Below, one piece after another: positions 6,957 through 31,575 of a stretch of DNA of 32,195 nt. Source of the DNA: Selenomonadaceae bacterium. GTDB lineage: Bacteria > Bacillota > Negativicutes > Selenomonadales > Selenomonadaceae. How positions within the stretch are numbered: the first letter of the stretch is position 1; every line of letters starts with the position of its first letter. The notes beneath the pieces are model-generated. The model was not told where the DNA came from. It searched no databases and saw only the letters and a list, made by a program, of their open reading frames with translations. The position numbers and the translations under genes were made by a program. The stretch covers positions 1 through 32,195 of the forward strand of contig JAEEGN010000108.1 of assembly GCA_016280345.1 (NCBI GenBank). Direction: 5' to 3'.

Positions 6957-7346
6957 ATGACGATGTCAAAGACCGAAAAGATGCGGAAACTGTTCGCGGA
7001 GAAGCAGCTCGACACGGAGCAGATGGACGGCGTCGCCGGCGGGTCAGCGGATGAAAAGGCCGACGACTTCCGCTTTCTGAACGTGCTGCTGCGGGGGCAC
7101 CCCTGCCAGCCGGAGCGGTACGGTGAAACCAGAGTCGGAGGATATGAATCTTCGTCGATTACCGATGAGCTCGTTCGTGCCTGGGGTTCTGTCGGGATCG
7201 AGGCCAAGATATTTACCATAAGCAGTAACATGTACGTCGATAACGCGACGGGAAAAGAGATAACACGGAACGAAGTCTTTGCCCTCGCCCAGCAGCGCGT
7301 GGGCAAGCAGCTCCAGCATTCGGACTGGTACTGGCCGGATGATTGA
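6957..7346 (+). CDS. GG-leader precursor protein with long conserved cargo domain (P1)
   Basis: MTMSKTEKMRKLFAEKQLDTEQMDGVAGG|SADEKADDFRFLNVLL...AWGSVGIEAK...MYVDNATGKEITRNEVFALAQ...SDWYWPDD; SD GGGGAGGA. In-frame GTG at 6867 also has an SD. Confidence 0.75.
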   Translation: MTMSKTEKMRKLFAEKQLDTEQMDGVAGGSADEKADDFRFLNVLLRGHPCQPERYGETRVGGYESSSITDELVRAWGSVGIEAKIFTISSNMYVDNATGKEITRNEVFALAQQRVGKQLQHSDWYWPDD

Positions 7347-10153: not shown

Positions 10154-12388
10154 ATGGATATGAAAGAAAGGCTCCGGCAGTTCATCTTCGGGACGAAGCG
10201 CGTCAAAGTCCCCACCGTCCTCCAGATGGAGGCGGTGGAGTGCGGCGCGGCGGCTCTGGCGATGGTGCTTGCCTACTATGGCAAGTGGATTCCGCTGGAA
10301 CGGCTGCGGCAGGAGTGCGGCGTCACCCGCGACGGCAGCAACGCCGACAACCTCGTGCGCGCCGCGATGCGTATGGGCTGCCGGGCAGAAGGCCGCGCCG
10401 GTCATCCGCTGGGATTGAAGAAAAAAGAATATCCGCTGATTCTGTTTTGGGAGTTCAACCATTTCGTCGTGCTGGAGGGCATCGAAAACGACGTCGTGTA
10501 CCTGAACGACCCCGCCATGGGGCGGCGACAGCTTCCGTGGAAGGAGTTCCGCACCTCTTACACCGGCGTATATATCGAGGTTCGTCCGGACAAGGAGCGA
10601 TTTGCGCCGGAGGGACACCCGTACAGCATCGTCAAGGCGATGGCGGAAAAGCTCGCGGAGGACAAGTGGGCGGTCCTGTTCGTGGTCGTCCTCGGGCTCT
10701 GCATGATCCTTCCCGGCATTGCCGTGCCGGTGATGAACCAGATTTTCATCGACGACGTCTTTTCCATGAAGCATCCCGAATGGACGCAGAAGCTCTTTGC
10801 GGCCATGCTGGGCGCTATGGTGCTTTCCGGAACCATGACCGCCATGCGTTCGGCGGTGCTCAATTTCTGGCGCAGGAAACTGACGCTTTCGGATTCCTCC
10901 AGCTTCTTCTGGCACGTCCTGCAGTTGCCGGTGGCTTTCTTCCAGCAGCGGTACGCGGCGGACGTGGCCTCCCGCATTCAGTTCAACGAGGCCAACGCCC
11001 AGGTGCTCACGGAGCAAGCGGCGACCTCCCTGCTGGATCTCTTCGTGGCCCTTTTCTATCTGGGGCTGCTGTTCCAGTACAGCGTGCCGCTGACCATTGT
11101 CGGCGTTTCCGTCAGCGCTCTGGATATCTTCATGCTGCTCTATATGCGGCGCAACATGACCGACCTGACCATGCGGATCCAGCAGGAGCGGAGCAAGGAA
11201 TACGGCGCCCTGATGGCGGGCGTCATGATGATCGAGAGCATCAAGGCCAACGGCAGTGAAGGCGACCTGTTCACGAAATGGTCGGGCTACGGCACGAAGG
11301 CCACCGATGCCATACAGGACATGCAGGTCTGGTCGATGAAGCTGAAGCTGATTCCGTCGCTGCTGGCAGGCCTGAACAGCGCCCTGATTATGACGGTGGG
11401 TGGCTTCTCCATCATGGAGGGCGTGATGACCGCCGGTATTTATACCGCGTTCAACAGCCTGATTGCCCAGTTCCAGCAACCGGTGGAAAAATTGAAGATG
11501 TTCGGAAACACGTTGCAGATGACCGAGATGCAGATGCAGCGTCTCGACGACGTGAGACGGTACAAGATCGACAGTTTGAATTACCCCAGCGAAGCGGAAG
11601 AAGAAGCGAAGCAGAAGACCTTCCCCGGCGACCGCCTTTCCGGCGAACTGGTCCTCAGGGACGTGAGCTTCGGCTACAGCCCACTGAACCCGCCGTTGAT
11701 CGAGCATTTCGATCTGGCGCTGGAGCCAGGCGAGTGGGCCGCCGTGGTAGGCGCCTCGGGCAGCGGCAAATCGACGCTGGCCAAGATCGTATCCGGCCTT
11801 TACGAGGAATGGTCGGGTGACGTGCTTTTCGACGGCGTCAAGCGGCGAGACATTCCGCGGGCTGTCATCGTCAATTCTCTGTCCACAGTGGATCAGGACG
11901 TGTTCCAGCTTTCGGGGACGGTACGCGAAAACATTTCCCTTTTCGACAAGTCCGTACCGAAGGAAGACATCATCCAGGCGGCGCAGGATGCCTGCATCCA
12001 TGAGGACATCCTGAAGCTGAACGGCTCTTACGAAGCGTCGGTCTCCGAAGGCGGAATGAACTTCTCGGGCGGTCAGCGGCAGCGGATGGAGATCGCCCGG
12101 GCTTTGGCCTCGAACCCGTCGCTTTTGATCCTTGACGAGGCCACCAGCGCCATCGACCCGATGACGGAGCAGAAAGTATTGGAAAATATCCGCCGGCGGG
12201 GCTGCACCTGCCTGATCGTCGCCCATCGCCTTTCGACGATCCGGGACGCGGACGAGATCATCATGCTGGAAGGCGGCAAGGTGGCGGAGCGGGGCACGCA
12301 CCGGGATCTCATACAGCACGACGGCCCTTACCGCAGGCTTATTGAGGAACGGGAGCAGGAGGAAAACGGCGAGGAAACGCTTGACTAG
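10154..12388 (+). CDS. NHLM-type C39-peptidase-containing ABC exporter (cassette 1)
   Basis: C39 domain QMEAVECGAAALAMVLAYYG...WEFNHFVVLEGI...YLNDPAMGRR; Walker A GASGSGKST, signature FSGGQRQR, Walker B LLILDEATSAID. Confidence 0.93.
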   Translation: MDMKERLRQFIFGTKRVKVPTVLQMEAVECGAAALAMVLAYYGKWIPLERLRQECGVTRDGSNADNLVRAAMRMGCRAEGRAGHPLGLKKKEYPLILFWEFNHFVVLEGIENDVVYLNDPAMGRRQLPWKEFRTSYTGVYIEVRPDKERFAPEGHPYSIVKAMAEKLAEDKWAVLFVVVLGLCMILPGIAVPVMNQIFIDDVFSMKHPEWTQKLFAAMLGAMVLSGTMTAMRSAVLNFWRRKLTLSDSSSFFWHVLQLPVAFFQQRYAADVASRIQFNEANAQVLTEQAATSLLDLFVALFYLGLLFQYSVPLTIVGVSVSALDIFMLLYMRRNMTDLTMRIQQERSKEYGALMAGVMMIESIKANGSEGDLFTKWSGYGTKATDAIQDMQVWSMKLKLIPSLLAGLNSALIMTVGGFSIMEGVMTAGIYTAFNSLIAQFQQPVEKLKMFGNTLQMTEMQMQRLDDVRRYKIDSLNYPSEAEEEAKQKTFPGDRLSGELVLRDVSFGYSPLNPPLIEHFDLALEPGEWAAVVGASGSGKSTLAKIVSGLYEEWSGDVLFDGVKRRDIPRAVIVNSLSTVDQDVFQLSGTVRENISLFDKSVPKEDIIQAAQDACIHEDILKLNGSYEASVSEGGMNFSGGQRQRMEIARALASNPSLLILDEATSAIDPMTEQKVLENIRRRGCTCLIVAHRLSTIRDADEIIMLEGGKVAERGTHRDLIQHDGPYRRLIEEREQEENGEETLD

Positions 12389-12403: not shown

Positions 12404-15130
12404 ATGAAGCTCGAGGCAGGGAAACGGTTCCGGATACCGGACGACAATACCTATATCGAAGTGATTTCCGGCAAGGCGGAGGTCTATGCCGTTACGCGCA
12501 AGAAGATTTCTTTCCGCCGGATTTTTCTGATGGAGCTGGAGCCGGGCGGGACGGCCTTCCCACCGATGGACGAGTTTGAGTTGATCGACATCCTGATTTA
12601 CGCGGTGGAGGACGTCGATCTGGAGACACATTCCCTGGCCGAGGCCGATGTCGTCACGCTGCGCGAGCAGATGAAGCAATGGTTCGCCTCCCTGCTGGAG
12701 CTTCCCTGGCTTCGCCTGATGGCCGACCGGGGCGATGATGTGCTGAAGCATTGGGAGAACGGCAACCTGCCTCTGGGGCAGGGCGACGACCGGGACACGC
12801 TGCTGGAGCGGTTCGGTGACAACGAGGGCATCTTCGCCATGTTGCTGGGCGTCCGCTTCGGCGCCCAGGACGAGAAGCTGTCCATGCGCATGGCGAGCCG
12901 CGCCAAACAGAAGCGGCGCATCGTCGAGCAGTCCATTGCCCAGATGCTGGGAGAGGAAACGGTCCCGGAGGACGGCGAGAGCCAGGGCAACGCGAAGCTG
13001 GAGGACACGGTCTTCCTCGTGCGCTGCGCGGCCCAGGCCCTGGACATGAGGAGCCGGGACGTGCACCTTGCCCCGGAGATGGCGAAAAAGCTCGACCAGC
13101 TTGGATTGATTCGTCGTCTCGTGCAAAAGGGCGGCATGCAGATGCGTTTCGTCACGCTGCCCGAGGACTGGCATACCGGCGACAGCGGTGTCCTCCTCGG
13201 CTATTACGGGGAAAAGAAGCAACTGGCCGTCTTCCTGCCGGTGACGCCGGAATCCTATCGCATGGTGACGCGGGACCACCCCGAGGGCATTCCCGTGACG
13301 GACGAGGTGGCCAAGGCCATCGACCGCGACGCCTTCATCCTCTACGCCGGCATTTCCGGGCAGAAGCTCACCGGGCGCGACTTCCTGCGGTTCTTCTTCC
13401 GCCAGTGCTGGAAAACCGACTGGAAGACCGTCGTCGCCGTCAGCGTCGCCATGGGCCTGATCCCTCTGATTACGCCGGTCATCACGGAAACCATCTTCAA
13501 GGACATCATCCCGATCCTCGACCGGAAAGGGCTGGCCACCGTCACGCAGGTGGCCATGGTTTCGGGCTTCACTATGGCGGCGTTGGGCCTGGTGCGCTCC
13601 ATCGCCTTCCTGCGCGTGAATTCCCGGGGCGGCTTTGCGGCAAAGGCCGCCATGGTCGGGCGGATGCTGTCGCTGCCCACGAGATTTTTCCGCGAGTACC
13701 AGTCCGGCGACATCGCCAACCGTATGATGGGACTGGAGCAGATCACGCAGCTTCTCTCCGGGGAACTGGTGGGGACGCTTTTCAGCTTCGTCTTCTCCTT
13801 CTGGAGCCTCGCCCTGATGTTCTATTACAGCGTGAAGCTCACGGCGGTCGCCATCGTCATCTGGTTGGTGTACGTTGCCATCGGCGGGTTCCTGCTGCGC
13901 CGCCTGGTGGACTACCAGCGGAAGATGACCATGGCGAAGAACAAGACCTCCGGCATCTTGCAGCAGATCTTCACCGGGCTGGTGAAGTTCCGGGTGAAGG
14001 GCGCGGAGGAATACGCCTACCACCTCTGGAGCGAACGGTTTGCCGAGGAATGGAAATGGAACTACGAGGCCGGCTGGCTTCGGGCATATAACGACGTCAT
14101 CGCCGTCATCCAGCCGATCCTGCTTTCCCTCGCCCTCTACTACTTCGGAATCAAGGAACTGGCCGAAGCGGCGGCTGCGGGCGGGACCGCGGCCAGCGCC
14201 GCCCAGGAAGCCCTGGGCGCGCCGGAGCCGCTGACGGTGGCGACCTTCATTGCGTTCCAGGCGGCCTATACCGGCTTCAATGCCTCCGTTAACGCCGTCA
14301 TGCAGACGATGGAGCATTTCTCCGTCATCCAGCCGCTGCTGGAAAACATCCGGCCCATCCTGGAGGCGGAGCCGGAAAGTGCCGAAGACAAGCTGGAGGC
14401 CGACGTGCTCTCCGGGGCCTTCGAGGTCAGGAATCTGACGTTCTCCTACGGCGATGGCCTGCCCGACGTCCTGAAGGACGTGAGTTTCCGCGTGGCAGCA
14501 GGAGAGCACGTGGCCATCGTCGGCAAGTCCGGTTGCGGCAAATCCACGCTGATCCGCCTTCTCTTGGGCTTCGAGCAGCCGAAGAGCGGCGCCGTCTATT
14601 ACGACGGGCAGGACCTCTCCGAGCTGTCGCTGCCCTCAGTGCGTTCCCAGATGGGCGTGGTACTGCAGAATGGGCAGCTCATGACCGGCGACATCTACCG
14701 GAACATCATCGGCGTCAATGACTTGACCCTCGAAGACGCCTGGGCGGCGGCGGAGGCGGCGGGCGTCGCCGACGACATTCGCGAGATGCCGATGCAGATG
14801 CAGACCATGGTTTCCGAGGGCAGCACCAACATCTCCGGCGGCCAGCGCCAGCGTATCCTGATCGCCAAGGCGTTGGCCATGAAGCCTTCCATTATCGTCT
14901 GTGACGAAGCGACCAGCGCCCTTGACAACCACACCCAGGCCATCGTGACCCGAAGCCTGGACAAGCTCAAGGCGACGCGCATCGTCGTGGCGCACCGTCT
15001 TTCCACCATCCGCCATGCCGACCGCATTATCGTCCTTGATCAGGGGCGGATTGCCGAGAGCGGCACCTTCAACGAGCTGGTGGACAAGGGCGGGCTCTTC
15101 GCCTCTTTCGTCAAGCGTCAGGTGGCATGA
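12404..15130 (+). CDS. NHLM-type bacteriocin system ABC transporter, ATP-binding protein (cassette 1)
   Basis: Cyclic-nucleotide-binding-like N-terminus, TM region, Walker A GKSGCGKST, signature ISGGQRQR, Walker B IIVCDEATSALD. Confidence 0.9.
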   Translation: MKLEAGKRFRIPDDNTYIEVISGKAEVYAVTRKKISFRRIFLMELEPGGTAFPPMDEFELIDILIYAVEDVDLETHSLAEADVVTLREQMKQWFASLLELPWLRLMADRGDDVLKHWENGNLPLGQGDDRDTLLERFGDNEGIFAMLLGVRFGAQDEKLSMRMASRAKQKRRIVEQSIAQMLGEETVPEDGESQGNAKLEDTVFLVRCAAQALDMRSRDVHLAPEMAKKLDQLGLIRRLVQKGGMQMRFVTLPEDWHTGDSGVLLGYYGEKKQLAVFLPVTPESYRMVTRDHPEGIPVTDEVAKAIDRDAFILYAGISGQKLTGRDFLRFFFRQCWKTDWKTVVAVSVAMGLIPLITPVITETIFKDIIPILDRKGLATVTQVAMVSGFTMAALGLVRSIAFLRVNSRGGFAAKAAMVGRMLSLPTRFFREYQSGDIANRMMGLEQITQLLSGELVGTLFSFVFSFWSLALMFYYSVKLTAVAIVIWLVYVAIGGFLLRRLVDYQRKMTMAKNKTSGILQQIFTGLVKFRVKGAEEYAYHLWSERFAEEWKWNYEAGWLRAYNDVIAVIQPILLSLALYYFGIKELAEAAAAGGTAASAAQEALGAPEPLTVATFIAFQAAYTGFNASVNAVMQTMEHFSVIQPLLENIRPILEAEPESAEDKLEADVLSGAFEVRNLTFSYGDGLPDVLKDVSFRVAAGEHVAIVGKSGCGKSTLIRLLLGFEQPKSGAVYYDGQDLSELSLPSVRSQMGVVLQNGQLMTGDIYRNIIGVNDLTLEDAWAAAEAAGVADDIREMPMQMQTMVSEGSTNISGGQRQRILIAKALAMKPSIIVCDEATSALDNHTQAIVTRSLDKLKATRIVVAHRLSTIRHADRIIVLDQGRIAESGTFNELVDKGGLFASFVKRQVA

Positions 15131-15171: not shown

Positions 15172-15765
15172 ATGGCCGAAACGCAGTCAATGAATGCCGG
15201 CGAACCGCAGGCGGGCGTTGTTCCCATGCGGTTCGAGGACATCTATCTCGCCTACTACAAGCGCGTCTATAACTTCATTTACAGCCGTCTTCTGCATCGG
15301 GAAAACGCCGAGGACGTGACGGCGGACGTCTTCGTCTCCGTCCACCGCAACCTTTCACGGCTGGATTTGAGCCGGGGCACCTTCAATACCTGGATCTTTT
15401 CCATCGCGCGGAACGCTGTGCGGGATTTCAAGAAGCGCGCTGCCTTCCGTTGCGAGGTTCTGGGTAGCGTGCCGGAGACGTTCGCCCCGGAAGAGTCTTT
15501 TCCGGAGAACGGCGGGCGGGACAATACCCTGAAGAACCCGGACAACATTTGGCTGCAGCAGTTGCTCCAGCAACTTACGGAGGAGGAGGGAGATCTTCTG
15601 ATGTACCGGTACCAGATGAGCCTTTCCAACGCGGAAGTCGGGGAAATACTGGATATCAGCGTGGAGGCGGTCAGCGCGAGATACCAGCGATTGCTGAAGA
15701 AGTGCCGGCAGATGAGCCGGCAGATGGAACAAGCTTCCGGCCGTCTCTGGCAGGGGGACTCGTAA
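15172..15765 (+). CDS. Sigma-70 family RNA polymerase sigma factor (ECF-like)
   Basis: Region 2 FEDIYLAYYKRVYNFIYSRLLHRENAEDVTADVFVSVHRNL...FNTWIFSIARNAVRDFKKR; region 4 YRYQMSLSNAEVGEILDISVEAVSARYQRLLKK. Confidence 0.9.
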   Translation: MAETQSMNAGEPQAGVVPMRFEDIYLAYYKRVYNFIYSRLLHRENAEDVTADVFVSVHRNLSRLDLSRGTFNTWIFSIARNAVRDFKKRAAFRCEVLGSVPETFAPEESFPENGGRDNTLKNPDNIWLQQLLQQLTEEEGDLLMYRYQMSLSNAEVGEILDISVEAVSARYQRLLKKCRQMSRQMEQASGRLWQGDS

Positions 15766-18019: not shown

Positions 18020-20239
18020 ATGTCTTTATGGGATAAAATTGAGGGCATGTTCACCAGGGACGTCACGCGTGTCAAAGTGCCGACGATACTCCAGATGGAA
18101 GCGACGGAGTGCGGCGCCGCGTCCCTTGCGATGGTGCTTGCCCATTTCGGTATGTGGGTGCCCCTCGAAAAACTCCGGGCGGAGTGCGGCGTTAACCGCG
18201 ACGGCTCCAAGGCGAGCAACATCGTCCGGTGCGCCTCGTCCCGTCATTGTGACGCCCAGGGCTTCCAGCTCGGCATCGACGAGCTGCTGGACGCGGTGGG
18301 CGAAGGGCTGTTCCCACTGATCATCCATTGGGAATTCAATCATTTCGTGGTATTGGAAGGCATTGTCGACGATACGGCCTATCTGAACGACCCTGCCATG
18401 GGCCGCCGTACCGTGCCGGTGAAAGAGCTTCGCACCTCCTATACGGGCGTCGCGGTCTCTGTCTCGCCCGGCGAAGGCTTCCAGAAGGAAGGCGAGCGTT
18501 ACAACGTCTTTAAGGACATCATGTCCAAGCTAATGGAAGACAAATGGGTCGCGCTTTACATCCTGATCCTGGAATTTTGCGCCATCATCCCCGGTCTTGC
18601 CTCGCCGGTCATGAGCCAGATATTCATGGACGAGATTCTGACGGGTAAGCATCGGGAATGGATGTTCAACTTCTGTATCGCCATGGTGGCCTCCTTCCTG
18701 CTGTCCGGCCTCATGGGCTGGCTGCGGGCCGTGGTGCTGACCCGTTGGCAGACGAAGCTGACGCTGGCCGATTCGTCGAGCTATTTCTGGCACCTTCTGC
18801 GGCTGCCAATGCAGTTCTTCCATCAGCGGTTCGCGGCGGAAGTCGCGGGCCGCGTCGGATTCAACGCCGACATCGCCGGCGTCTTGTCCGGACCAGCGGC
18901 CACGGCCGTGCTGGACCTCCTGGTGGCTATCTTCTACCTGTTGCTACTGTTGCAGTATAACGTGACGCTGACGTTGATCGGCGTGGCCTTCTGCTCGGTG
19001 GAGATTATCATGTTCTTCGCCATGCGACGGAAGCTGACCGACCTCAATATGCGTATCCAGCAGGACTCGGGCAAAGCCTACGGCGTTTCCATGAACGGCC
19101 TTCGCATGATTGAGACCATCAAGGCGAACGGTGACGAAGCCGATTTCTTCACGAAATGGGCGGGCTACCAGACGCGGGTGCTCTCCGCTTCGCAGGAAAC
19201 GACCCTCTGGTCCATGTCCGTGAACCTCCTGCCGACACTTCTTTCCGGCGTCAACAGCGCCCTGATCATGACTATCGGCGGCTTCTCCATCATGGACGGC
19301 ACGCTGACCGCCGGTATGTTCACGGCGTTCCAGCAGCTCATGGGTAGCTTCCAGGCGCCGGTGAACGCGCTGGTGGGCCTCGGCTCGACGCTGCAGACCA
19401 CCGAGATGCAGATGCAGCGACTGAACGACGTGCGCCGCTATGAGATGGACAGCCTGAACTTCCCCTCGGAAGAGGAAGAAGCGAAGAAATCTTTCCCGCG
19501 CAGCCGCCTGTCCGGCGACGTGACGCTGACGGACGTTTCCTTCGGCTACAGCCCGCTGGAAGCGCCGCTCCTTTCCGGTTTCAACCTGCACGCGGCGCCT
19601 GGTGACTGGATCGCCGTCGTCGGTGCCTCCGGCAGCGGCAAATCCACGCTGGCGAAGATTGTCACGGGGCTCTACGAGGAGTGGAACGGTACCGTGGCCT
19701 TTGACGGCGTGCCGCGGCGCGAGCTGCCGCGCACCGTTGTCATTAATTCTTTGGCGGCGGTGGATCAGGACATCACCATGATTTCGGGAACCGTGGCGGA
19801 AAATATCGCCCTGTTCGACAGCTCCGTGCGCCGTCAGGACATTCAGCAGGCGGCCATGGACGCCTGCATTCACGACGACATCATGCTGCTTCCCGGCGGC
19901 TACGATGCGCAGGTCGCCGAGGGCGGCATGAACTTCTCCGGCGGCCAGCGGCAACGCCTGGAAATTGCCCGCGCCCTGGCGACGAACCCGGCGATCCTCG
20001 TCCTCGACGAGGCTACCAGTGCGCTCGATCCGCTGACCGAGAAAACCGTCCTCGACAATATCCGCCACCGCGGCTGTACCTGCCTGATCGTGGCCCATCG
20101 CCTCTCCACCATCCGTGACTGCGACGAGATCATCATGCTCGACCACGGGCATATCGTGGAGCGTGGCACCCATGTGGACATGATGGCCCATGACGGTCCG
20201 TACAAGATGCTCATTGAGGAACAGGAGGCCATGCGATGA
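18020..20239 (+). CDS. NHLM-type C39-peptidase-containing ABC exporter (cassette 2)
   Basis: QMEATECGAASLAMVLAHFG...WEFNHFVVLEGI...YLNDPAMGRR; intact Walker A/B and ABC signature. Confidence 0.93.
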   Translation: MSLWDKIEGMFTRDVTRVKVPTILQMEATECGAASLAMVLAHFGMWVPLEKLRAECGVNRDGSKASNIVRCASSRHCDAQGFQLGIDELLDAVGEGLFPLIIHWEFNHFVVLEGIVDDTAYLNDPAMGRRTVPVKELRTSYTGVAVSVSPGEGFQKEGERYNVFKDIMSKLMEDKWVALYILILEFCAIIPGLASPVMSQIFMDEILTGKHREWMFNFCIAMVASFLLSGLMGWLRAVVLTRWQTKLTLADSSSYFWHLLRLPMQFFHQRFAAEVAGRVGFNADIAGVLSGPAATAVLDLLVAIFYLLLLLQYNVTLTLIGVAFCSVEIIMFFAMRRKLTDLNMRIQQDSGKAYGVSMNGLRMIETIKANGDEADFFTKWAGYQTRVLSASQETTLWSMSVNLLPTLLSGVNSALIMTIGGFSIMDGTLTAGMFTAFQQLMGSFQAPVNALVGLGSTLQTTEMQMQRLNDVRRYEMDSLNFPSEEEEAKKSFPRSRLSGDVTLTDVSFGYSPLEAPLLSGFNLHAAPGDWIAVVGASGSGKSTLAKIVTGLYEEWNGTVAFDGVPRRELPRTVVINSLAAVDQDITMISGTVAENIALFDSSVRRQDIQQAAMDACIHDDIMLLPGGYDAQVAEGGMNFSGGQRQRLEIARALATNPAILVLDEATSALDPLTEKTVLDNIRHRGCTCLIVAHRLSTIRDCDEIIMLDHGHIVERGTHVDMMAHDGPYKMLIEEQEAMR

Positions 20240-25824: not shown

Positions 25825-25875
25825 CGTGGCAGCGGATAACCGGGCAGAGACAGAAATGTAAGGAGGTTTTTCATC

Positions 25876-25983
25876 ATGGACAGCAAGGAGCCGAGCGGTA
25901 CGAAGAAGATGAAAGAGAAGTTTGATGACCGGAAGATGACGGCGGACCAGCTCGAAGACGTCGCGGGCGGCACCAAGTGGTAG
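25876..25983 (+). CDS. Leader half of split GG-leader precursor (P2 leader)
   Basis: AGGAGG SD then MDSKEPSGTKKMKEKFDDRKMTADQLEDVAGGTKW*; same leader pattern as P1/P3. Confidence 0.6.
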   Translation: MDSKEPSGTKKMKEKFDDRKMTADQLEDVAGGTKW

Positions 25984-26253
25984 ATGATGATGGATAGCAA
26001 ATTCCTGAACTACATGCTGGGCGATAAAGTGTGCAGGCGCTGGAACGGAGAAGAAGTAGACTGGGAGGACAACTATCCCTACGTGTACATTCGGGACGCC
26101 TGGGAGAAAGTCGGCGTCAAGGCCAGTATGAGCGATCATATGGATGTACCTAACACTTACAGCATCGACGGTCGTCAGGTCACCCGGAGAGAAGCCTTCT
26201 TGCACGCGCAGAAGGTTCTGAACAAATTCGTGACGGACAGCGACTGGATGTAG
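25984..26253 (+). CDS. Cargo half of split GG-leader precursor (P2 cargo)
   Basis: Same frame as the upstream leader, directly after TAG: MMMDSKFLNYMLGDKVCRRWNGEE...AWEKVGVKAS...TYSIDGRQVTRREAFLHAQKVLNKFVTDSDWM; aligns with P1 including FLN and terminal SDW. Confidence 0.55.
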   Translation: MMMDSKFLNYMLGDKVCRRWNGEEVDWEDNYPYVYIRDAWEKVGVKASMSDHMDVPNTYSIDGRQVTRREAFLHAQKVLNKFVTDSDWM

Positions 26254-26340
26254 CGGGAGAGGATTCCTTCCGGCGCGTCTCGCCATTCGATACGCCACCG
26301 GCATTTCTCAGTTGGTCGCCGACTGACAGGGAAATGATTG

Positions 26341-26445
26341 AAGAAGGCGGTTTTTGTAGACGGCAAGAAGGTCACCCGGAACAGAGTCATGGAGTACACG
26401 CAGTTTAACATGGGCAAGTTCTTGGAGGTCAAGGAGCGGAAGTAA
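26341..26445 (+). pseudogene. Remnant of cargo-domain C-terminus
   Basis: KKAVFVDGKKVTRNRVMEYTQFNMGKFLEVKERK* aligns with P2 TYSIDGRQVTRREAFLHAQKVLNKFV; in-frame TGA just upstream, no start. Confidence 0.5.
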
Positions 26446-26598
26446 CAGGGAAGCCGGATTCCCAAATACAAGGGAGGTTTTCCTCATGACAGGCAAGCCC
26501 GATTTTGTAGTGCGCTTCTCTGCAATAATCGTTTTCCGTTTGCGGCAGAGCGTTGCAGCGAACGGGTAAGAACGGAGAGATACAAGGAAGGAAAAACC

Positions 26599-26853
26599 GT
26601 GAAAATCAACGGCAACAATATCTCCAAGGAAGTGCTGACGAAAGCCATGGCCTGCGATACGCCCAAGGAACTGGTGAAGCTGGCGAAGGAAAACGGCGTC
26701 GATTTGACGGAGAAGGAAGCAGAGGCGTACCTCTCCGAGATGGAGGACATCGACCTCGACCACGCGCAGATGAAGAGCGTGGCTGGTGGCGGTGACGTCT
26801 GCTGGGATAGATGCGGCGGCCATGATGATTGTCCAACGCCAGGAGGCACATGA
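26599..26853 (+). CDS. Nif11-like leader RiPP precursor with Cys-containing core
   Basis: GTG start; MKINGNNISKEVLTKAMACDTPKELVKLAKENGVDLTEKEAEAYLSEMEDIDLDHAQMKSVAGG|GDVCWDRCGGHDDCPTPGGT. Confidence 0.75.
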   Translation: MKINGNNISKEVLTKAMACDTPKELVKLAKENGVDLTEKEAEAYLSEMEDIDLDHAQMKSVAGGGDVCWDRCGGHDDCPTPGGT

Positions 26854-27193: not shown

Positions 27194-27352
27194 TTACTTG
27201 ATTTCGTCTTTGATTTTAAGGAATTCCTCGGCGTCCGCCCGGTCGAGATCGATGCCGCTCTCCTTCGCCTTCTCGATCAGCTCGTCGGCCGTCTTGCAGG
27301 ACTTGGCCAGCGCGATCTGTTCCGGGGTAAGTTCCTTGCCTTTGTACATCAT
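27194..27352 (-). CDS. Coreless Nif11-leader-like small protein 1 (52 aa)
   Basis: Below the ORF-track cutoff: MMYKGKELTPEQIALAKSCKTADELIEKAKESGIDLDRADAEEFLKIKDEIK; SD GGAGGA; TTGCCT-17-TAAAAT promoter upstream. Confidence 0.7.
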   Translation of the reverse strand: MMYKGKELTPEQIALAKSCKTADELIEKAKESGIDLDRADAEEFLKIKDEIK

Positions 27353-27568
27353 GGTTGTCATTCCTCCTCGAATAGAAAATGAAATCAGACATCTTCATTT
27401 TACATCAAAAACGGTCGACAGGCAATCCGGAGAAATGGATTCACTGTTTTTCCCGGCAAAGGCGCGGGCGTCGCCGCAGTCTGAAGCGGGCTCCTCCCGC
27501 CCGGCGCCATCCTTTTCCGAATTCCATGCAGGAATTGCGGAACCGACAGCGAATCATTACAGGAGGGG

Positions 27569-29913: not shown

Positions 29914-30258
29914 ATGACAATTTCGAATACGGAGAGAATGAAGAAGAAGTTTGCGGGCAAAATGCTCGCGGTGGAAGAGATGGAAGAGATCGTCGGAGGG
30001 GCGATGTCGGGCATGAACCAGGACGCGGCGCTCTTCAAGCAGATGGGATACGACAATATCCCCGTCATCGGCGGTACGGAACAATGGAAAAAGGTTTGGG
30101 CTTCCTTCGGCGTCGATGCGGCAAAGACGCAGGACGGAGGGAGTGCCTATTCCGTCAACGGCAAGCCCATCACCCAGGGAGAGGCTTGGAAGATGGTGAA
30201 AGAGGCGAAATCCGGTATGAATATCCAGGGATTCACTATCCCCGTCGGCAGGCGGTGA
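29914..30258 (+). CDS. GG-leader precursor protein with cargo domain (P3)
   Basis: MTISNTERMKKKFAGKMLAVEEMEEIVGG|AMSGMNQDAALF...VWASFGVDAAK...AYSVNGKPITQGEAWKMVKEAKSGMNIQGFTIPVGRR; SD AAAGGAGA. Confidence 0.75.
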   Translation: MTISNTERMKKKFAGKMLAVEEMEEIVGGAMSGMNQDAALFKQMGYDNIPVIGGTEQWKKVWASFGVDAAKTQDGGSAYSVNGKPITQGEAWKMVKEAKSGMNIQGFTIPVGRR

Positions 30259-30938: not shown

Positions 30939-31097
30939 TTACTTGATTTCGTCTTTGATCTTGAGGAACTCCTCGGCGTCTTCCTTGGAGAGATCGAAGC
31001 CGCCCTCCTTCGCCTTCGCGATCAGCTCTTCCGCCGTCGTGCAGGATTTTGCCAGCGCCAGCTGCTCCGGGGTGAGTTCCTTGCCTTTGTACATCAT
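30939..31097 (-). CDS. Coreless Nif11-leader-like small protein 2 (52 aa)
   Basis: MMYKGKELTPEQLALAKSCTTAEELIAKAKEGGFDLSKEDAEEFLKIKDEIK; SD AAGGAGG; TTGTCA-17-TAAAAT promoter further upstream (about 31360-31390). Confidence 0.7.
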   Translation of the reverse strand: MMYKGKELTPEQLALAKSCTTAEELIAKAKEGGFDLSKEDAEEFLKIKDEIK

Positions 31098-31575
31098 GGT
31101 GAAAAACCTCCTTAAAAAAATAGATAGAAAATGTGCTGCCCTGCCCTCCCCGAGGGGAGGACAGGATGTGCAGGACAACTTTCCTGTCCCCTGGTTCCTG
31201 TACGGGACCGTCTGAAAACCGTCGAATTTTCAGAGATTCCCAAAAACGCAATTCCTTCCGGGATGGGCGCGCGGAAAGCGCGGGCACGGAAGCGCCCGGC
31301 GCCGGATGTCATCAGGCGGATTGCCTTCCCTGCTTTCAAGGTTTCATCCTTTCTTTTTCATTTTACTACGCTTGCCGTCCGTTGACAAGGGGAGGATTTC
31401 AAGGAACACGTATTTCTTCTCCGAACCCTGTGCCCCGGCGGCGTCTGTCGGTGGAAACGAAGGAAAGACAAGCGATAGGGGGATTATCGTGAATACGCGT
31501 CCGGTTTAATGATGAAAATACATGTTCGGTTTAATAAAATTCTTTTTTCGTTTTTCCATTTTTTTTCCGCAGAGC

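Follow-up and report, generated by a model that had tools for sequence, protein, structure and literature searches.

An in-frame TAG behind the Gly-Gly leader of a Selenomonadaceae precursor gene is very probably a young nonsense mutation

Introduction

In a 32,195-nucleotide stretch of DNA from a Selenomonadaceae bacterium (the whole of which we call the window), a reading frame that opens with ATG at position 25876 is interrupted by an in-frame TAG at 25981-25983, directly followed by an ATG at 25984. The frame encodes a Gly-Gly leader and a cargo, and the interruption lies close to the border between them. Is this a gene broken by mutation, a leader and a cargo made as separate polypeptides, or a stop codon that ribosomes read through? 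The initial annotation of the locus had left these three readings side by side. Here, we weigh them, together with a possible assembly artefact, against the relatives of the gene and its genomic setting.

Results

Position of the stop and its genomic setting

Translation of 25876-26253 gave MDSKEPSGTKKMKEKFDDRKMTADQLEDVAGGTKW, one internal stop (TAG) and then MMMDSKFLNYMLGD...SDWM before the terminal stop. This bears out the original observation that TAG and the next ATG share one frame. The stop had also been placed exactly at the leader/cargo junction, which the translation corrects: T-K-W stands between Gly-Gly and TAG, so that the stop is cargo codon 4, three codons past the junction. Against a profile built from 87 other leaders, the leader reached 34.6 bits. 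As first reported, the cargo aligns with that of the paralog P1 (window 7065-7328), with 35% identity over residues 4-88. Coordinates are collected in table 1.

Table 1. Features of the locus, its exporter genes and paralogs, and pyrrolysine genes of two other genomes. Positions refer to the window unless a contig or locus is named.
Feature	Position	Strand	Evidence or remark
P1, intact one-piece paralog	6957..7346	+	
NHLM ABC1 exporter subunit: C39 peptidase, permease, ATPase	10154..12388	+	TIGR03796, 941 bits (cut-off 853)
NHLM ABC2 exporter subunit without peptidase	12404..15130	+	TIGR03797, 739 bits (cut-off 709)
Second NHLM ABC1 exporter subunit	18020..20239	+	TIGR03796, 959 bits
Shine-Dalgarno AAGGAGG of the precursor gene	25860..25866	+	anti-SD duplex energy -13.3 kcal/mol
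Present leader ORF: Gly-Gly leader of 32 residues and T-K-W, then TAG	25876..25983	+	
Gly-Gly codons, predicted C39 peptidase cleavage site	25966..25971	+	98-100% conservation of the GG columns among family members
Premature TAG at an E/Q cargo column, fourth codon after GG	25981..25983	+	family alignment
Cargo frame, 89 codons, intact but for the upstream TAG	25984..26253	+	without its own ribosome-binding site
C-terminal remnant of another precursor copy (LKKAVFVDGKKVTRNRVMEYTQFNMGKFLEVKERK, then stop)	26338..26445	+	lacks leader and N-terminal part
P3, intact divergent one-piece paralog	29914..30258	+	
PylS of G004	C44:110-823		
PylS of G010	C9:178509-179228		tRNA-Pyl(CUA) in the same region (L060 2326-2395)

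The window matches all three NHLM models (TIGR03794, TIGR03796 and TIGR03797) above their curated NCBIfam cut-offs, with two ABC1 subunits, one ABC2 subunit and an HlyD protein. Peptidase_C39 (PF03412) was found in the first ABC1 subunit at 8e-32. Between the two exporter cassettes lies a gene for an ECF-type sigma factor (15172-15765). The genome as a whole has ten NHLM ABC1-like matches, with copies on contigs C166, C270, C297, C99, C267, C9, C29, C287 and C38, an unusual expansion for one draft genome. A supposed in-frame TAG in the ABC1 gene on C287 turned out to be the terminal stop of that gene.

The stop replaces a sense codon of the family

To see what the TAG stands for, we aligned 108 family members, the window copy included, with a hidden Markov model. 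The TAG column holds E in 51 rows, Q in 33, D in 11, N in 4, A in 3, S in 2, and G and V in 1 each, with one gap. Leaving out the window copy, E or Q is thus found in 84 of the 106 homologs that bear a residue here, and the window row alone carries a stop. In the sister gene on contig C231 the matching codon is GAA (Glu). The number of residues from GG to the conserved Asp equals that of the family. The change is therefore free of insertions and deletions, and the same spacing rules out that the ATG repeat slipped. The TAGATG neighbourhood is ordinary for this family, since 14 of 107 homologs have Met directly after this column.

No stop at the same place was seen in the other precursors that were read residue by residue, from this genome and from the loci of relatives. 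Homologous loci that keep the split, which the initial annotation had proposed to look for, were not found among them, and the other internal stops sit elsewhere. The Kup flank of the window locus was sought in G001, G003, G019 and G085 and not found there.

Intact, damaged and truncated copies

The nearest paralog (C231:3786-4145, minus strand) is one uninterrupted ORF, containing VAGGLENETMLDCNFLNYMLGDKVCRRW, with 56% identity to the window cargo. A full-length profile gave 18 matches in the genome, and about ten of its paralogs are intact and fused, among them those on C231, C75, C103, C189 and C289 as well as P1. Across the taxonomic family, 74 of 189 genomes had matches, and almost none of these matches contained an internal stop. 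Against the named-genome collection, a tighter precursor alignment returned 14 Selenomonadales loci, and a scan with the cargo alone returned nothing. Among named relatives, the precursor family was found in metagenome-assembled genomes of Selenomonadaceae and other Selenomonadales, of which several derive from ruminants, including a goat-rumen Schwartzia sp.

Other members of the family are damaged. A second paralog in this genome has an early TAG in its leader (C231, locus L017, 3511-3513, minus strand), reading MTMR, stop, TEKTRQLFANKALNAEQLENVAGG, and its cargo is partly missing. In a precursor on C103, a TAG (KKSDW, stop, W) trims the last residues only, and a precursor leader of the related genome L099 contains a TAA. 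C231 also carries C-terminal precursor scraps and a truncated leader. In the window, the scrap at 26338-26445 directly follows the interrupted precursor and looks like the C-terminal part that the family conserves. Stops, scraps and truncated copies together give the picture of a birth-and-death gene family.

Further downstream in the window, at 26470-26500, lies a sequence (aagggaggttttcctcATGacaggcaag) that echoes how a precursor gene begins, with a ribosome-binding site and a start, but no leader comes after it.

State of the frame downstream of the stop

Against family profiles built without either sequence, the window cargo scored 74.1 bits and the intact C231 sister 75.8 bits. The window copy keeps 21 of 31 family-conserved downstream columns and the sister 18 of 31. 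Nei-Gojobori dN/dS between the two copies was 0.44 in the leader and reached 0.88 in the cargo, where it is based on only about 17 synonymous differences. By part, and with small counts, the cargo gave 0.28 in the N-terminal, 1.8 in the middle and 0.59 in the C-terminal part; the overall value is driven by the variable middle. We read the undecayed frame as pointing to a recent lesion, a state that a selected cargo product would also predict. For a simple pseudogene, the initial annotation had expected intact fused relatives together with dN/dS near 1 downstream of the stop. Intact fused relatives exist. On the second part, cargo dN/dS is 0.88, but by profile score and conserved columns the downstream frame is no more decayed than that of the intact sister.

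The cargo middle (precursor residues of about 58-92) is far more diverged from C231 than the cargo ends, which may hint at diversifying selection or exchange between copies.

A young nonsense mutation as the favoured explanation

Taken together, 25876-26253 is very probably a precursor gene of a birth-and-death family that a nonsense mutation has hit recently, and not a designed split. Of the three readings first offered, the recent nonsense mutation is the one that the results back: the stop falls on an E/Q column reachable by a one-base substitution, the sister is intact, no relative shows the split and the family bears other lesions. The locus would belong to a Selenomonadaceae family, present in multiple copies, of putatively exported small proteins, in which a Gly-Gly leader of about 30 residues is fused to a cargo of about 90 residues predicted to fold, encoded among NHLM-type peptidase-containing ABC exporters. 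A Glu or Gln sense codon at the fourth cargo position would have become TAG by a single accessible substitution. Translation would still start behind the strong ribosome-binding site before 25876 and would end after 35 residues, in which case no cargo should be exported from this copy. What then reaches the C39 peptidase of the exporter would be a leader that carries just three cargo residues. From the sequence, we infer a loss of function of recent origin and a leader that the local exporter could still cleave. The genome should be able to afford the loss of one copy, since it carries about ten paralogs that are intact and ten ABC1 exporter matches.

The case resembles nonsense-mutated members of other bacterial multigene families: it has a lone stop where a sense codon is conserved, paralogs that are intact, and adjacent truncated copies and scraps. 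Compared with birth-and-death pseudogenes nothing essential differs, and the lesion here looks young. The tempting reading as a split leader and cargo would thereby give way to one broken copy in a large, fast-turnover family of exported proteins.

Reinitiation, assembly error and readthrough

Alternatively, the split could be functional, with terminating ribosomes reinitiating at the ATG behind the TAG and producing leader and cargo as separate polypeptides. The distance from stop to start is 0 nt, and in E. coli termination-reinitiation works over very short distances: at a spacing of +2 nt, the loss in three gene pairs was 5, 20 and 70% (PMC10666635). The undecayed cargo frame would also fit. 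The Shine-Dalgarno energy of the leader ATG (-13.3 kcal/mol) lies past the 1% tail (-11.4) of random window 17-mers, and that of P1 is -11.5, whereas the three ATGs after the TAG reach only -5.8, -4.7 and -5.7, within the random range (median -3.6, 5% tail -9.3). Against a split, the run of ATGs lacks a Shine-Dalgarno sequence, fused relatives often have Met at the same positions, and the split is absent from every relative examined. Moreover, the product of reinitiation would be a leaderless cargo, which a C39 peptidase exporter is not expected to process; to our knowledge, cargo without a Gly-Gly leader is not a recognised substrate of this transporter class. We therefore regard the deliberately split pair of the initial annotation as improbable. 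Leaky reinitiation that gives a dead-end product, unlike a designed pair, is possible.

If the assembly consensus were wrong, or if the metagenome bin had picked up the allele of a minority strain, the gene would be intact in the population. The genome is a draft of 318 contigs (96.1% complete, 4.5% contamination), and the collections searched yielded no second genome of the species, which leaves room for such an artefact; the only genome of the same genus that was found is G001. Short-read assemblies, however, seldom contain consensus errors of a single substitution. The stop site is no homopolymer and the length is preserved, and the other lesions in the precursor family indicate that real nonsense alleles occur. 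We give this explanation little probability.

Readthrough or recoding of the amber codon, by pyrrolysine or a suppressor tRNA, would restore a full-length precursor, and we consider it very unlikely. PylS scored above cut-off in two other Selenomonadaceae genomes, G004 and G010 (table 1), and the in-frame stops of precursors in the present genome (the window, the C231 leader and the penultimate codon on C103) are TAG in three of three cases. TAG, however, is the commonest one-step nonsense outcome in five intact precursors of this genome, at 53%, so that three TAGs would arise by chance in about 15% of cases (0.53 cubed). In the genome itself, a family search with positive controls found no PylS above cut-off, only low class-II synthetase scores, and the pylT of G010 had no match. 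No CUA anticodon was present among 38 tRNA hits (ARAGORN), save for one unread 57-base partial hit at a contig end; the draft state of the genome leaves a small gap in this search for amber-decoding tRNAs and synthetases. TAG terminates 25 of 157 ORFs of at least 250 aa and 53 of 301 ORFs of at least 200 aa, and the median extension past the stop is 27 codons for TAG and 26 each for TAA and TGA. These counts agree with the initial statement that TAG serves as a normal stop elsewhere and that genome-wide recoding is unlikely. Local RNA at the stop site folds no better than shuffled sequence (z 1.23). With no amber-decoding gene found, no local structure and normal termination at TAG, stop readthrough finds no backing here.

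It is also highly unlikely that the stop is a tolerated switch, in which reinitiation at TAGATG yields a low level of leaderless cargo that is kept in the cell under selection, apart from the leader fragment; such a retained cargo could then serve, for example, as self-immunity or as a regulator, and selection for it would account for the lack of decay behind the stop.

The cargo family and related systems

The cargo family is more interesting than the stop, with a predicted fold without a match and many copies per genome. The domain of about 90 residues is common to many Selenomonadaceae. AlphaFold2 modelled the cargo with a mean pLDDT of 86 and a pTM of 0.78. The family had no match in Pfam, NCBIfam or the PDB, and the best hit of a fold search of the PDB had an E-value of 2.1; in NCBIfam, P1, P3 and the window cargo were all without a match. 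Searches of the literature found no description of this precursor family. It appears undescribed in the libraries searched and merits a description of its own.

The genomic setting recalls the double-glycine precursors exported by NHLM systems (NHLP and Nif11; Haft et al. 2010, PMC2887384), as exporter genes above the NHLM cut-offs lie nearby and leaders in this family end in a conserved V-A-G-G motif. Unlike in those precursors, the leader is short and fits neither the NHLP nor the Nif11 model, and a conserved domain of about 90 residues predicted to fold takes the place of a short hypervariable core. None of nine family members matched the leader models for NHLP (TIGR03793) or Nif11 (TIGR03798). 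Unmodified class II Gly-Gly bacteriocins with PCAT exporters share the short acidic GG leader, the C39 peptidase exporter and the presence of several precursor copies. The cargo here is much longer than theirs, without a match in Pfam, NCBIfam or the PDB, and we know of no antibacterial activity of the family.

Precursors of another kind also occur in the window. At 26599-26853, a Nif11-like precursor with a GTG start has a Cys/Gly-rich core after GG (GGGDVCWDRCGGHDDCPTPGGT) and scores just below the cut-off of the family model. Short Nif11-leader-like proteins are encoded on the minus strand at 27194-27361 and 31019-31178, and a similar gene lies on C231. These proteins, of the form MYKGKELTPEQ.ALAKSC.TA.EL..KAKE.G.DL...DAEEFLKIKDEIK, end before any Gly-Gly or core.
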